From the NCBI GenBank assembly GCA_000697355.1, contig JNEN01001240.1, positions 248,001-312,000 on the forward strand: a DNA stretch of 64,000 nt, in the 5' to 3' direction. The notes below the pieces were generated by a model that saw only the letters and a list, made by a program, of their open reading frames with translations, was not told the origin of the DNA and ran no database searches. The position numbers and the translations under genes are program-made. Of the stretch, positions 1 to 8,963 are shown piece after piece (position 1 is the first letter of the stretch; each line of letters opens with the position of its first letter). Origin of the DNA: Syncephalastrum monosporum B8922. Lineage: Eukaryota > Mucoromycota > Mucoromycetes > Mucorales > Syncephalastraceae.

Positions 1-340
1 CTTAAAGGCAATATAGACGACGGTGTGGACAGGATCCAACAGCGCGGCCGTGAAGCTGCGCGGCGCGAAGAGGTAGTAGGCAAAACGATCCGTAGCGAAG
101 AGTTAGTTGGAGCCCTCGAATTGTTCCCAAACGCCGAGAACGCGCACCAGGACGTTTCTGGAAGCGCTTGAAGCATCTGCGAGATCAAATAGAGAGATGT
201 ATATTGAGCGCAACAAGGATTCCGCGGTCTGATGAGCTTTCGGTCCTCCACACAGAGCATAACTGGGGAGATCCACCTATCGACCATGCACGAGATTTAT
301 GTTGCAACAATGTCGTGCCGACCGAGAAAATTGTGAACAC
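1..340 (-). pseudogene. SEC61-alpha (translocon channel) pseudogene fragment, continues past the left edge
   Basis: Read on the minus strand, blocks typical of Sec61-alpha follow in the right order but not in one frame. VDLP is at 276-265, LYLISQML at 194-171, VLVRVLGVWE at 153-124, and ALLDPVHTVVYIAFK runs to the window edge (about 45-1). An in-frame TAA at 105-103 stands where the family normally has a Gln codon, and at least two frame changes separate the blocks. No usable N-terminal coding region exists between 340 and 643. The blocks are closer together than in the intact protein, so short deletions are likely. No intron is visible between them, so a processed copy is possible. Sec61-alpha forms the ER protein-conducting channel; this copy cannot make it. 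Recognition is from memory of the family; the disruption is seen directly. Confidence 0.72.
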
Positions 341-643
341 TGCATACAAGTAGAGAACCGGTATCGGGAAGTTATATGCAGCTTATCTATGTGGTTCAAT
401 AAAATTCGACTGATACGTTGCTGTCTATCATTGTTTGAGTCTGACACACTCGACTGTATAATATTATCTGATTCATGAGAAAAGTATCAGAACGATCACA
501 ATATGGGTGAGTGTAGTCAGCTTTATCTCTTCTCTTCTCTTCCGCTTTGACTTCACCTTTTCTCTTCGTTCTCTCCTCCTGTCTTGCTACTCTATCACCG
601 TTCACGCTATTACATATTCATTTCTCCCCATTACATTTCAAAT
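341..643. other. Gap before the nuclease-fusion gene
   Basis: No coding signal is visible. The last ~130 bases are rich in C/T (tct, ctt runs from about 520 to 640), a composition common in fungal 5' leaders, and probably belong to the leader of the gene starting at 644. A sequence resembling a poly(A) signal (AATAAA) lies near 399-404 on the plus strand, but no plus-strand gene ends here convincingly. Confidence 0.4.
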
Positions 644-2119
644 ATGGGGGTCAAAAACCTTCATTATCACGCCACAAAAGCCAAGGCTTATGAAGACAAC
701 GTTGACTTGCTTCAACGCCTGAAGCAAGAACACGTGGATATGATCTTTGTCGATGTCTGTTGCGTCTTTTTCGACATGTTGTCAAAAAAAGTCGGAGCTC
801 CCCTGCTCACTTATGACATGTACACACGAAAGGGTATGTATGACTAACAGTAAGCAAAGTCATTATCACGGCCCACTAATATAATGCTTCAAGGCATAGA
901 TATAGGCGGGGCCAGCAGCACAACTTCCAAGCAAGGCCTACACCATGCTCTACATGCATTTACCCAGGACATGATCCAGGCCACCATGCGGCTGACCGCG
1001 GAAGGTGAACGGCGCGCATGTCTCGTTTTGGACAGCGAGACACCATTTGAACCGAAGCGTCGGACCACCATAAAAAGAGAGTCAGACGCAAATCATGCGT
1101 TAAACATAGCCGCGCGTCTATGTCGTCGGTCGAAACAACAGGATATCAGTGATATAATACAACGCCACGCCCGGGCGCATACGCGCTTCACTAGGGATAT
1201 AAAGAAAACGGTCGTCGAGGTACCAAGTAGCAGTCTCACATCCACATGTATATGCTTTACTCACTAGTTACTTTCCATGCTGTACCAATGCAGCTATTAT
1301 TAGCATCCGGCATACAAGAGTATGAGCAAGAAATGTCGTCGCTGCCACCGCTTTCATTCTTTGTTTCTCTACGAGAAGCTGATGCACAAGTTGTCTACTT
1401 GGCGGCATCATGGCCTGGCCGACCGGCCATTATGTCTAGGGATGGCGACTTGTTTGCCTACGGCGGCGCATTAAACTGTTTGGTACGTATACAGACGCGA
1501 GAAAAGAGGGAGATTCCAGGACCCCGCTTCTAATAACTTTTAATATCTCTGTAGCGCATACTGCAAGTCGGATGGGAGAACGACACATTGTTATCCAGAG
1601 TGACAACAAAAAGTAACCTCCTCACAAGTCTAAACCTGAAAAACGCACGAGACGGAAGTGATTTTCGAAAGGTAGAGTTTCGCATATACTGTTGGATTAT
1701 AGCTTATATAAGCATAGGCCGAGACGCGCTTGGCGGTCATTGCGTCTTTGTCGGGAAATGACTATGCAAGCAATCCAAAGAAACATGCATTCAAGCGCAT
1801 CCAAGACATGGTGCTTGAAATAGACCTTACCACTCCCGATGAAGATGCCCTCAATTTGATGGAAAAGGTAATTGTATAACATTGTGAGGAGTACAGGATA
1901 TAGTATGATACTAACAAAAGCAATAGGTACTCGATAAAATCCCATGGCTTTCGGAGTACGACATACGGCGGTACCAGGTGTCCCTACATCAGTTTTGCTG
2001 CCCTTACGTCTTGACCAATAGCGGGGATATATCCACGAAGACTGTCCACCAAGGCATCAACATCAAAGCCAGCACCAAATTGCTGGATGAAATGTACGGC
2101 GAGAAAATCCGTGTGAAGC

Positions 2120-2160
<41 letters not shown>

Positions 2161-5100
2161 GGTAGATATTTGCAGAACCTAAAAATGTGCAAACATAGTA
2201 TTAAACTCCGTGTTTATTGTAGCTACTGATTCGGATAAAGGCTCCCGCTTCACCTTCGTTACCACCAGCTCGGTACCGAAAGCCCTACTCGGTCAAGAAG
2301 TCGACACTGGCGAAGAAGCCAAGAAGAAAAAGCCCACAAAAAAGCCGAGGAAAAAAGGCTCATCATCTCGAAGCCTCAATAAACCGGATGACCCCTCAGT
2401 TGCCAAGAAGCGCGTCTTCAAGAATCAAAGCCGACTGCTCCCGAACGAAGACGGTGAGCTGACCAAGGTGCATCCCTTAAGCCGTGCAACAAGCTCCTGG
2501 TCCGCAGGCTTGTATTCTTCTGTGTTATCTGCTGCAATCAAGCGTAGTCCCGAAGACCATCAATACGCAACACAGCAAGCAAGAGCTGTGACGTCAGCTT
2601 TGCGGAGCGATGTCAAACTAGCAAACAACATGCGATCTATGGCTTTAGAGGTTGCACGGATTGCATTGGAAGACGTCAGCAGGGAGGATTATTCCCCCCA
2701 GCTCAAGCAGCACATCTACCGCAATTTTTTTCAGTCGACTCGCGGCGGTGTGGTACGGGATCCTGTTTCCACCCTGCGCTGGCAAGGTTATGAAGCTGCT
2801 TCGACTTCTGACTCCAGTGAATCATGCGCGCAAAAGACCTGGACCTGGATCTTAAACATGACCACCGCTTACGTCAACGCAGCCATGGAGCGCCTCAATG
2901 ACTTTGCAACTGAGGCATACCAGCAAGTCTCTCCCCGCCTGGACGCTGCAGGATGGATACACAACCCAAACAGCTTCATCGCGTATCCGGAAGACAAAAG
3001 CATCAAGTCATTGGTCGCCATGATGTCAATGAATCCGCCCCTGCGTAACGTTTTATTAAAAGCACGATACATATGGTGGCAGGGTTACGCAGGCGACTGG
3101 TCTCAAGCACCGGTGCTAAACAGTTCTGGGGGAAAACACCCGATGATTGAGTCTCTGGCAAGAGAGCTCGATTCAGTCTTCCGGGCAAACATCATCCACA
3201 ATTTCATCCCAAGATCTATTTCCTTGGTCGACAGTCTTTTGGCGCAACAGGCATTAGTTCCGAAGGGCTGGCCTGTGGACGATCAGTTCCGGCAATGGCT
3301 ATTCAATATGATCAACACAGACGCTGACGTGCGTCAAGCTCTGCTCTCCCACTACAAGCATCTACCATCCGATACGGCAAAGTCGATTTCCCGCTTTATT
3401 CGGTCTCGTCGACGCCGAAATCGTCCAAATGATCTCGTGGAGCTTTGCAACCAGCTGAAAATAATGGCCACAGTACCTGCAGGATGGCCAGAGCACGACT
3501 CAATTGGGGCATACATCTTTGCTTCTGTGTTCCGTGTGCCGCTCCATGCGAACGGCGGCATTATGCCCGATCAAGAAGCCCTACGAACAGTACCAGATGG
3601 CGTCAAAGAGCATCAAGGAATTCAGGAAGTAGTACAAGCGTACCGAGGCCGGATGGAGCGTCTTTTTGGCTCAGTTATCATTGCGCGCGGCCCAAAAGAG
3701 GCCGTCACAACGGAAGGCTTTGATCTCTACGATGGCCTGGGCTACCAGCGTCCGTCATCAGATTCTCCAAAGTTTCTGCAAGCAACGAAACCGAGACAAG
3801 CCCATCGTCTGCTGGAAGCAACATTGGACATGGAGAAAATCCTGCCTGATTTTTCAAGGGATTTTATCAATCCTGTACCGGCTACTGGCCTCTCTCCTGC
3901 GTGTATCCTTTTCAGCGAGAGCCAGCTGAGTCCCATGCTAAACCGTATCGATCTTGTTAAAGAAGACTACAAAACTTATCGGAATGCTACAGACGGGGAA
4001 GAGGGAAAGGTAAAGACAGCTCCAAGGTGTAGATTAAAAAAGGAAACGTCATATTGATACACTGTCGTTTGATCAGAGCGCTGTCAGTTTTATCTTAGAT
4101 ATTGGCGTCAGAGCAGTACATCATAAAGGAGATATTAGGCTGAAGAACCGCCCATACGCCTATAAATTGAAGAAGGTAGTGCCAGGGACTGGAGAAGCGC
4201 AATACACACCGCAATCGTCTTTTCGCACGAACGGAATCAAAGTGATACAAGGGTACACAAACTGGATGCAACCTGCCGCAAGAGGCACAATCAAACGCCA
4301 GCCTATCAGCATTGATCAGTATCTGAGAGACAACGAGGATACCAAGAGTGATTTGAAAGCCGTCTTGGCACTCGATTGCGGTGAAGTCTGTCCGGTGGCG
4401 TCGTTCGCCATGCCCATCTTACCAAGCGGAGGTCCAAGGCGTGGCCTACAGCTTTGCGTGCGTCGACAGGAGGCCTACGGCCTGACAGACCCAAATGCTC
4501 GGTGGCTGGAAGATAAAAAAGACCGCGAAAAAATCAACGACATCGAGGCCCATATCTCAAGACAGGTTACTGGTGCAGGCAATCCACATGCATACATGGC
4601 AAAACTGAGGTCTCACCAGTCGAACAGTAACAAAGACATTCTGAGGAACTTTTACTCGAGGCCCTCTGTTCTCCGGAAAAAATGGGAGATACAGCGTTCC
4701 ATACGGTCACGTCTTGACAGCATTTGCGATTTGCTGCTCGAGTCGGTGAAGCAGGCAAGCAACAATGAGGAAACGAAAGTTTTGGTCGGCGTCGGCATGG
4801 ATGGCCAGAGCGCTGGACCGGCGCGCAAAGGAGCGAGGGCGCCTATGGATGAGAAATTTCTGGAAGCGCTCAAACGAAAAGCAAAGAGTCATGACTTCCC
4901 TTTGGTCCGCCTCAACGAGTATTGCACAAGCCAAATCTGCCCTCACTGCCTCCAGTTGGGTAACGAGGTTTTTACCGAGTACTTGAAGCGCGTGCCCTCA
5001 AACCCATCACCTGAAGCTGAGCCGTACGACGTCCTTCGCGTAAAAACATGTCGCGTATGCCACAAGTACTTCCATCGTGACGGCATGGCTGTGCAAAATA

Positions 5101-5363
5101 TGGCGCTCATGATGGAAACCCTTTTGGTCGCGGGCGAGAAGCCCATGTGCTTCATACCGCCTTTGTCCAGAAAGGATCAAGAAAGCACCTCTGGTTCCGG
5201 CAGGAAGAAAAAAGGGAAGAGAAAGGCACCCAGTGAACAAGCAGACGGGGAGATAAAAAGAAGTAGACTAGTATGTGGCCCCCTAGACAGGGCGGCTCGG
5301 GCAATATGCCCGTATATAGTTTCTATATATATGAGATACCGCAATGAAAAGCTGGAGTGTTAA
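644..5363 (+). CDS. Fusion protein: FEN1/XPG-like 5' nuclease plus Fanzor/TnpB-like RuvC nuclease
   Basis: Eight exons (644-833, 894-1219, 1294-1482, 1555-1671, 1718-1867, 1927-2161, 2223-4009, 4077-5363) give one 1426-residue frame; all seven phases agree. The start MGVKNL resembles the MGI.GL start of FEN1/XPG nucleases. XPG-N, XPG-I and H3TH-entry signatures follow, with D37, D110, E200 and D202 (EADAQ), D222 and D224 (SRDGDLFAYG) and D289 (LSGNDY) as the expected metal ligands. A lysine-rich linker (~residues 420-450) leads to ~550 residues I do not recognise. The C-terminus has RuvC-I (LALDCGE, D1098), the Fanzor-style alternative glutamate (LNEYCTS, E1279), a zinc ribbon (C1286, C1289, C1323, C1326) and RuvC-III (HRDGMAVQN, D1333). 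The tail is basic and could be a nuclear signal. Family knowledge: FEN1/XPG enzymes cut DNA flaps; Fanzors are RNA-guided DNA nucleases linked to transposons. That both activities work together is inference. Two separate genes are unlikely because no stop or promoter interrupts the chain. Confidence 0.82.
2119..2160 (+). repeat. Coding microsatellite (CAACAG)n in the fusion gene
   Basis: A run of near-perfect CAACAG hexamers ends exon 6 of the fusion gene and is read as alternating Thr-Ala. It sits between the XPG-like part and the lysine-rich linker and abuts the splice donor at 2162, so length changes could also affect splicing. Confidence 0.9.
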
Positions 5364-7677: not shown

Positions 7678-8963
7678 TCATATCCACCGTCTGAAGAAGT
7701 TGAGACCCGAGTCTCTCATGCGCCACCCTTCGACTTGGTTTGTCAGTCGTGCCAATCGTTCATCCTCTTGCTGTTCCACCGCCTGCGATGGGATCGGCTA
7801 TCATATCATAGATATATAAACAAACAGGTCAGCCTCTTTCTGTAATGAATGCGTTGCGCCCCAACACTATAATGACAATAAGCAGGGCGGGCTCTTACCC
7901 ACCACATTATGTTCAAACCCCATGACGGCATCCGCCTCATTCTCTTCCACGTCCTCTGCGTCGATTTCATCATCGTACAGCTCGTCTTCTTCGTCTTCTT
8001 CGTCATCGTCGACTGTGCATCCTGGTGGCCGCATCCGTAACCACTGCATCCGGGGTCCTACACGCGACTTTTCATTCACCCGGAAACCAAATATGCTCGG
8101 CTGGTAAATAGTGCTACGAGGTGGCCGTAGAAGTTCAGGAAAGGACTGGAACATGAGGTGTGCGTACGTCGTGCCGAAGTGTGCACCTAACATGGGGAAC
8201 GCAAGTTAAGAACCGTTGCATAGAGAGCTTTGGTGTAGTTACCGTCGACGTTGACAAAGATGGAGCTGGAAGGATTGTAGAGATCCATGCACCGAGGACA
8301 ATAGAGTCGGACGCTCTCCTTGCCGACTTCGTCAAACCGCCCACAGGGGATAACGGGGCATCGTCCGCAATAGACGCGAGGACAGAAGCCAAACTGTTCG
8401 GAGGCGTAGCGTTCCGCCATGAGCCGCAGACCGTTGCGCGTCAGCAGATAGCGCTGATGGATCAAACCGTACAACATGGCTGCATAGGGTTCAATTACGC
8501 TCGGGTGCACGCGTTCGCGGTGTCGGCGAGGGATCGGTTTTTCTTTCCAGAAACCGTCGTCTTCCTCTTCTTCAGAGTCGTCTTCCTGTTCTAACTGGGT
8601 CGAGTTGGTCAAGCCCGGTGCAGCGCCTCCTCCACCCACCACGTCTTCATCCTCAATGTCTTCTGGCTCGACGTCCAGAATCATGTCCAGGGCCTCAGAA
8701 TAATAGGGAACGATCGCCGATAAACCGGTCAGGTTGAAATCGTCTTCGATGAATTCCTCGGGCACTTCAGCATAGTATTCGTTGCCTGATAATGAGCAGA
8801 ACCAGCTAATCCAGCTTTGGAGCGAGCTGCCCGTGCTGGGTTGGGATTCGTCATCTTTGGAGCATGCCACCAGAGCTTCTCGTTAGCCATAAACCGCCTC
8901 TCTCTCGCTCTGTGTCTTCTTACCGTATACTGGATCAGCGGTTGACGAAAAGAATCTATCCAT
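7678..8963 (-). CDS. CKB1: Casein kinase 2 regulatory (beta) subunit
   Basis: Exons 8963-8924, 8875-8243, 8186-7903 and 7797-7678 give 358 residues. It is the dimerising, substrate-selecting subunit of the CK2 Ser/Thr kinase. Visible family marks: WISWFCSLSGNEYYAEVPEEF near the start, the HQRYLLTRNGL region, zinc-binding cysteine pairs (CPRVYC and CPRC) and the AHFGTTYAHLMFQSFPEL block. Fungal extras are a long acidic insertion (DDSEEEEDD) before the HPSVIEPYA part and an acidic Asp/Glu run after the conserved core. The last splice is the weakest. I used donor GTGGGT at 7902, the only choice that opens the final frame ending FFRRWI; a better-looking donor (GTAAGA, 7898) would give a different, shorter end. 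The first exon is 40 nt, with start MDRFFSSTADPVY. Confidence 0.9.

Follow-up and report, generated by a model that had tools for sequence, protein, structure and literature searches.

Fanzors are eukaryotic RNA-guided nucleases. Can such an enzyme be joined in a single polypeptide to a nuclease of the FEN1/XPG superfamily, and what might a mobile element gain from carrying the two together? This question is raised by a gene at positions 644-5363 (+) in a 64,000-nucleotide stretch of Syncephalastrum monosporum B8922 DNA, the whole of which we call the window (C164:248001-312000, one contig of a 27.5-Mb genome of 198 contigs). An earlier note on this DNA had proposed a FEN1/XPG-type flap nuclease fused to a Fanzor/TnpB-type RuvC nuclease. 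We regard the fusion of an XPG-type and a Fanzor-related part as established, with high confidence, at the level of sequence, and the fused gene is the only recognized intact gene of a multi-copy mobile element. With moderate confidence, we favor a reading in which Fanzor-like guided cutting would be coupled to EXO1-like end processing, favoring homologous recopying of the element.

A single eight-exon gene encodes both parts

Splicing the region by hand gave eight exons and one open frame of 1426 amino acids (aa), with all seven introns being GT-AG and 46-74 nucleotides (nt) long. The single frame with consistent phases described in the earlier note was thus reproduced, and the ten residues named there (seven XPG ligands, D1098, E1279, and D1333) were all found at their numbers. 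Exon 1 (644-833; residues 1-63) starts with MGVKNL and encodes D37 at 752-754; its intron has the same position and phase in C166 and C179, two other copies in this genome. Exon 2 (894-1219; residues 64-172) encodes D110 at 1031-1033, which is invariant in the N-terminal alignment. The XPG I-region lies in exon 3 (1294-1482; residues 173-235), with READAQ containing E200 and D202 at 1375-1383 and SRDGDLF containing D222 and D224 at 1441-1449. Exon 4 (1555-1671; residues 236-274) is followed by exon 5 (1718-1867; residues 275-324), where GNDYASNPKK, with D289 at 1760-1762, lines up with the GxDY region found in XPG genes of the host. Exon 6 (1927-2161; residues 325-402) ends in a low-complexity (Thr-Ala)n stretch, encoded by a GCAACA-type repeat (2119-2160) whose length differs between C164 and C179. 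Exon 7 (2223-4009; residues 403-998) encodes a Lys-rich linker (~435-447) and then an unrecognized middle part. Exon 8 (4077-5363; residues 999-1426) carries an RTNG motif, the RuvC residues D1098 (4374-4376), E1279 (4917-4919), and D1333 (5079-5081), and a C4 zinc ribbon (C1286, C1289, C1323, and C1326), all on the plus strand. When the protein was shuffled 20,000 times, the TnpB/Fanzor motif of Bao and Jurka never arose, a loose XPG ligand pattern made for this analysis arose 17 times, and the two never arose together.

Does this frame represent one gene? The sole protein relative found among about 5.8 billion, BCR43DRAFT_559548 of S. racemosum (P0001; 1 of 7990 candidates scored), is an uncharacterized protein of 1166 aa that is 42% identical over 83% of the query and has the same fusion, its deposited model ending inside RuvC. 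A three-sequence profile search again recovered only P0001 (1 of 7996 candidates). Both searches depend on word matches within the first 500 residues and could therefore overlook distant relatives; a search with region 1000-1400 found no homolog among 3660 candidates, and viral contigs searched with the N-terminal alignment yielded no relative. Within the genome, C166 is a diverged copy with ~43% protein identity to the window and 81% identity to P0001 over P0001 residues 380-969. By splice-aware alignment, C166 has seven introns in the same order and phases as the window gene, intron 6 lying in a poorly aligned low-complexity stretch where its position is only equivalent. All seven introns also occur in C179 and in the decayed C162, the latter with extra introns called by the aligner in damaged places. 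XPG-type and RuvC parts occur together at at least five loci (C164, C179, C162, C166, and the remnant C16), and a sixth, C77, retains the middle together with the last portion of the XPG part; locus counts here are lower bounds, with 33 of 75 candidates scored.

These data bear on the view that the locus holds two neighboring genes, or an artifact of the gene model, with XPG and Fanzor genes transcribed separately. Such a view could draw on intron 6, which is close to a step in C164/C162 identity near residue 400 and falls in the poorly aligned stretch, but in C164, C179, C166, and C162 alike this intron has phase 1 and a corresponding place, the S. racemosum record spans the junction as one protein, and the first Met past the exon 6-7 junction that is common to the window, P0001, and C166 is residue 615. 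We consider separate genes very improbable. The claim that both parts belong to one protein is supported by the exons conserved in C166, the single annotated S. racemosum protein, and the cross-controlled profile comparisons described below.

The C-terminal part resembles Fanzor RuvC and zinc-ribbon domains

The Pfam TNB profile matched the window protein at 32.8 bits (cut-off, 26.3; E = 8e-8) and five of the six members of the exon-8 alignment; the remaining member is presumably P0001, which ends before the TNB region. The best NCBIfam match was guided_TnpB, at 26.5 bits against a cut-off of 100. The motif D-X(125,275)-[TS][TS]-XX-C4 zinc finger-X(5,50)-RD was matched by the window, C179, and C166 (read through breaks). 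The catalytic glutamate (E_alt) stands six residues before the zinc finger (E1279, YCTSQI, then Cys), and this glutamate, the four Cys, and RD are retained in the window, C186, C3, and C166, where a stop codon comes directly after the fourth Cys and a frameshift is close by. The RuvC-I aspartate D1098 is invariant in the window, C166, and P0001. The D/E/D triad is the same in the window and C166 despite ~43% identity, and in P0001 as far as its sequence reaches.

Profile comparisons pointed in the same direction. The best PDB profile matches were Fanzor1 of Parasitella parasitica (E = 0.0018) and Fanzor1 of Spizellomyces punctatus, SpuFz1 (E = 0.033), followed by an unrelated protein at 0.051. 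The same genome contains a second, unfused Fanzor group with DPG, present in several copies (C46, C154, C167, C105, C75, C146, and C40, among L001-L008). A single unfused fragment used as a profile gave no useful match, and a three-member alignment (C154, C167, and C40) was used instead; against this profile, hhalign aligned the fused C-terminus at 98.0% (E = 1.9e-13), and the three-member profile itself matched SpuFz1 at E = 2.6e-5. We read the C-terminus as a Fanzor-related RuvC with a zinc ribbon.

The N-terminal part resembles the FEN1/XPG superfamily

The N-terminal domain, at about residues 1-330, bears an EXO1-like signature (READAQ...SRDGDLF...GNDY). XPG_I was present in all five members of the N-terminal alignment, with a best E of 9.1e-5. 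In a PDB profile search of this part, Exonuclease 1 accounted for the five best matches, each of them in the I-region (E = 0.033 to 0.5, weak when taken alone). Compared by hhalign with XPG-family genes of the same genome, the domain scored 73.7% over the I-region, and a wider alignment reached a probability of 91.5% (E = 8.8e-7) spanning READAQ, SRDGDLF, and GNDY, in keeping with homology across the I-region and the helix-two-turn-helix. This host-gene alignment spans only residues ~194-339, and the MGxxGL start and D37 were recognized by eye. Crossed hhalign controls, XPG part against Fanzors and Fanzor part against XPG genes, gave no match (0.1% and 0.06%). Together with TNB, the motif, and the profile matches above, these controls support the earlier assignment of the C-terminus to the Fanzor/TnpB type.

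Seven XPG carboxylates, in order, are invariant across the window, P0001, and C166; we take them to correspond to the FEN1/EXO1 metal-ligand numbering. Elsewhere in the genome are five XPG_I genes, none of which is the fused gene and none of which lies near a TNB match; judging by sequence, these resemble XPG/RAD2, FEN1, EXO1, GEN1, and a fifth, MGVRGL protein. The N-terminus thus appears to be a divergent domain of the FEN1/XPG superfamily. Membership of the superfamily, with all seven ligands, stands as the earlier note had it, but the nearest solved relatives are EXO1 (weakly) and not FEN1.

The fused gene belongs to a multi-copy element

Besides C164, there are six near-identical copies, at about 97-99% DNA identity (C179, C173, C176, C24, C156, and C13). 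Six of the seven end at about window position 5333, after which their flanks differ; in C13 the match stops earlier. The right end of the element, GGCTCGGGCAATATGCCCGTATATAGTTTCTATATA (5294-5333, +), is where homology between copies stops, and a 23-mer from it occurs 11 times in the genome at up to 3 mismatches, compared with none for the reversed control. Of the 11 occurrences, one is in inverted orientation on the left of the diverged copy C180 (2 mismatches), and C79 has a weaker inverted match there (5 mismatches), an indication that inverted repeats are present in related copies. Where a left repeat would stand, the window copy and C179 have instead about 2 kb that include a decayed, reverse-strand SEC61A fragment. 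The end of this SecY-family fragment lies at 1-103 (-), with a Pfam match at window-equivalent -113 to 63 that is below the cut-off in C164 and above it in C179. We read it as a captured piece of a host gene. Two long SEC61A genes occur elsewhere in the genome (C156 and C60). The upstream part of the mobile unit (1-643, no strand assigned) continues left to window-equivalent -1737 and is shared with C179, which has about 350 base pairs (bp) more; further left, over the 3.6-3.8 kb examined, C164 and C179 show no similarity.

Other copies are reduced. C147 is internally deleted, its left part being joined to the last ~455 bp (L059:2722-3558), and C38 and C184 are right-end remnants; these three are reminiscent of SpuFz1 ghost loci. 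If the gene were instead a single-copy host gene unrelated to transposons, one would expect neither these derivatives nor the seven near-identical loci, of which six share a right end but differ in their flanks. All DNA copies compared come from this one genome, and a contig end truncates four of the seven (C173, C24, and C156 reach it inside the element; C176 reaches the contig start). We give a host gene next to no credence. The earlier suggestion of an association with transposition is supported by the multiple copies and their sharp common right end.

A candidate omega-RNA follows the family stop codon

At 5274-5276 (+), the window has TGT; all five other near-identical copies in which the right end is sequenced read TGA here. 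Since those five have TGA at codon 1398, the family protein ends at residue 1397. The window copy lacks that stop and continues for 29 more residues, across the element end into the flank. The gene extent given in the earlier note is therefore correct in that the frame is open to 5363, but the last 29 residues exist only in the window copy, the element being already over near 5333.

The right end lies 57 nt past the family stop codon, and the intervening stretch is predicted to form three consecutive hairpins (5277-5329, +), a candidate omega-RNA scaffold. The 60 nt at 5274-5333 fold at -23.9 kcal/mol with these three hairpins (z = -2.37, 100 dinucleotide shuffles). We also folded nine subfamily ends singly, with z from mononucleotide shuffles. 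Six right ends (C164, C94, C186, C162, C38, and C184) gave z of -2.16 to -4.0. A GGGC/GCCC stem is present in all six, although C184 has just three pairs of it; the first, GAGCC/GGCTC-like stem is present in four (not C94 or C162), and the third stem in three (C164, C186, and C184). The internally deleted C147 has one such stem (z = -0.87). Folding was poor for both inverted left ends (z = 1.54 and 0.1). These left ends, from the decayed copies C79 (L058:3512) and C180 (L055:4025), keep the right-end sequence but fold far worse, as if hairpins were needed only at the right. Rfam had no match in the window. The SpuFz1 omega-RNA of S. punctatus, about 80 nt, is placed between the stop codon and the right inverted repeat in the parts of PMC10432273 covered here. 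By analogy of position with the SpuFz1 omega-RNA, we infer that the hairpin stretch is a candidate guide scaffold.

The two halves of one copy have different histories

Between C164 and C162, the XPG half has a synonymous divergence (dS) of 0.229 and a nonsynonymous divergence (dN) of 0.052 (dN/dS = 0.23, 325 codons), and the comparison is saturated past residue 400. Nucleotide identity drops from ~0.9 to about 0.55 near exon 6/7 (C162 being L050 in the comparison with window 1-2240), and over the Fanzor half it is only about 0.5. Because the XPG half is close to C164 and the rest is saturated, the two halves of C162 have different histories, and the simplest reading is that C162 is a recombinant element, formed by one recombination at the domain border with a joint near residue 400.

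A proposed coupling of guided cutting to end processing, and its rivals

We suggest the following model. The C-terminal ~950 residues would act in the manner of a Fanzor: they would take up an omega-RNA, read from the three-hairpin 3' end together with flanking DNA as the guide, and would cut at a matching site, either the empty site left after excision or the one on the homologous chromosome. Such a Fanzor-like guided cut is, in our judgment, likely. Less surely, the XPG domain would process the ends or flaps of the cut, removing 5'-strand DNA as EXO1 and FEN1 do, and the break would then be repaired by copying an element-bearing template rather than being re-joined. In this view, a single fused molecule would both cut DNA and resect the ends. 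That this coupling is the best reason for the fusion is a tentative proposal, to which we would give slightly less than even chances. Trimming of the displaced strand, as the earlier note imagined it, could be one form of this end-processing model.

An EXO1/FEN1-type fusion would imply that processing of the ends left by guided cutting is important to the element. It bears on how Fanzors help their transposons and makes the idea of homing directly testable. Editing tools exist that fuse a resection factor to a guided nuclease. The boldest form of the model, for which we hold a modest expectation, is a self-propagating, dual-nuclease RNA-guided element whose built-in EXO1-like 5' resection steers each guided cut into recopying of the element from a homologous template, or homing. 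If true, this element would be a eukaryotic counterpart of those editing fusions, and the protein could serve genome editing as a natural scaffold on which guided cutting and resection are linked.

Several observations weigh against guided cutting coupled to end processing. First, likeness to known nucleases is incomplete. XPG_I scored 16.5 bits in the window protein (E = 0.012) and 21.6 bits in P0001 (E = 2.8e-4), both under the curated cut-off of 24.9, and XPG_N matched neither the window protein nor the N-terminal alignment; of the profile similarities expected at the two ends, TNB was above its cut-off, but XPG_I was below and XPG_N unmatched. In each of the five rows that include RuvC-I, it reads DCG, DLG, or DFG and not the Fanzor DPG, and for want of DPG we file the C-terminus as a Fanzor-related branch, not as canonical Fanzor1. 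In the covered parts of PMC10711439, E_alt and DPG are given as Fanzor traits, DPG being near exclusive to Fanzors. Residues ~450-1113, which take in the middle part of ~600 aa, had no PDB profile match and only chance-level Pfam matches. No counterpart of the Fanzor WED and REC RNA-binding lobes was recognized in this stretch, though the ~550-residue middle may, as the earlier note suggested, hold the RNA/DNA-binding lobe. AlphaFold models of the S. racemosum relative, built on an alignment of exon pieces (18 rows; mean predicted local distance difference test [pLDDT] 42.7), and of window exon 8 (5 rows; pLDDT 36.3) were too poor for use. Second, many copies have decayed. C94 has Gly in place of the catalytic glutamate, C147, C16, and C116 have lost part of the zinc ribbon, and C16 has lost one XPG ligand. 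All long copies other than the window carry frameshifts or stops; since these are broken and the window copy lacks its stop, current activity is uncertain. Between C164 and C179, dN/dS is 0.545, from few changes (22.5 synonymous, 41.5 not), and selection looks weak. Third, even with 6 mismatches allowed, neither the window copy nor C179 showed a left inverted repeat. No target-site duplication or insertion motif was resolved by eye, the ends being AT-rich and the left end found for only two near-identical copies. No transposase was noticed among the open reading frames of the unit when inspected by eye, no profile or genome-wide search having been made. Fourth, the RNA fold weakens with length: windows of 120 to 400 nt to the end gave z of -0.78, -0.6, -1.99, and -1.91, with the second hairpin in four of four, the first in three, and the third in one. 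Six 120-nt control windows from exon 8 gave z of -0.12 to 1.49, from which the end at equal length (-0.78) differs little.

Some of these points could equally mean that one or both nuclease halves are non-catalytic, the XPG part serving, for example, as a DNA-structure-binding module or the RuvC half as a guided DNA binder. The RuvC-I without DPG, the XPG_I score under threshold, and the decay of most copies, some without catalytic or zinc-ribbon residues, would fit such a role. Against it, none of the seven XPG ligands or D/E/D triad residues differs between the window and C166, at ~43% identity, or in P0001 as far as it reaches. We judge loss of catalysis to be rather unlikely.

XPG enzymes are structure-specific. 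With the fusion real, the XPG domain may act not on a guided break but on DNA or RNA flaps at excision or integration, at inverted-repeat ends. This substrate preference, the inverted repeats with internal palindromes in related copies, and purifying selection on the XPG half all agree with flap trimming, but the lack of a noticed transposase and of a left inverted repeat in the window copy count against it as well. The present data do not separate flap trimming from resection; we hold flap trimming to be an unlikely but serious contender.

The fused protein compared with known systems

Like Fanzor1 (SpuFz1, 8GKH; P. parasitica PpFz1, 9CF0), the fused protein has a RuvC with a repositioned glutamate, a C4 zinc ribbon, RD, and the motif spacing; its element also has apparent inverted-repeat ends (in related copies) and, past the stop codon, a predicted RNA-like structure that runs up to the right end. 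Unlike Fanzor1, it carries an XPG-type domain within about 400 additional N-terminal residues, reads D[CLF]G and not DPG, and has an unrecognizable middle lobe. Fanzor1 structures are described in the covered parts of PMC11423790. With the unfused Fanzors of the same genome it shares an RTDG-type motif before RuvC-I and the profile match over RuvC and zinc ribbon, but those have DPG wherever their RuvC-I was covered; the searches listed no XPG-like match in the vicinity of these loci, whose 5' halves were read for some but not all. Like the Rad2/XPG superfamily (EXO1, FEN1, GEN1, and XPG), it has an MG(V/I)xGL start, seven ordered carboxylates, EADAQ as in EXO1, and a GxDY region, but unlike that superfamily it is too divergent for Pfam XPG_N.

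Mucor Fanzor elements with varying 5' parts are reported in the covered portion of PMC3627910. The element is like MCi-2 of Mucor circinelloides (Bao & Jurka 2013), described there, as far as the main text goes, as a Fanzor element in multiple copies that differ in their 5' regions but hardly in their 3' part; unlike the fused protein, MCi-2 is not mentioned in that text with XPG or any fusion. The covered parts of the SpuFz1 (PMC10432273) and TIGR-Tas (PMC12045711) papers, and those of PMC10711439 and PMC11423790, likewise mention no XPG fusion. No published fusion of Fanzor/TnpB with XPG or a flap endonuclease was found in the open literature, a search that did not cover most subscription papers and preprints outside PMC.

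Other features of the locus

By size, the ~950 residues after the linker would equal or exceed a whole Fanzor1. In the middle part, a P-x-GWP motif occurs twice (exon 7, residues about 748-766 and 820-839) in the window, P0001, and C166, and is perhaps an internal repeat. About 2.8 kb downstream of the element, an open frame at 8187-8882 (-) encodes what we take to be a casein kinase 2 regulatory subunit beta.

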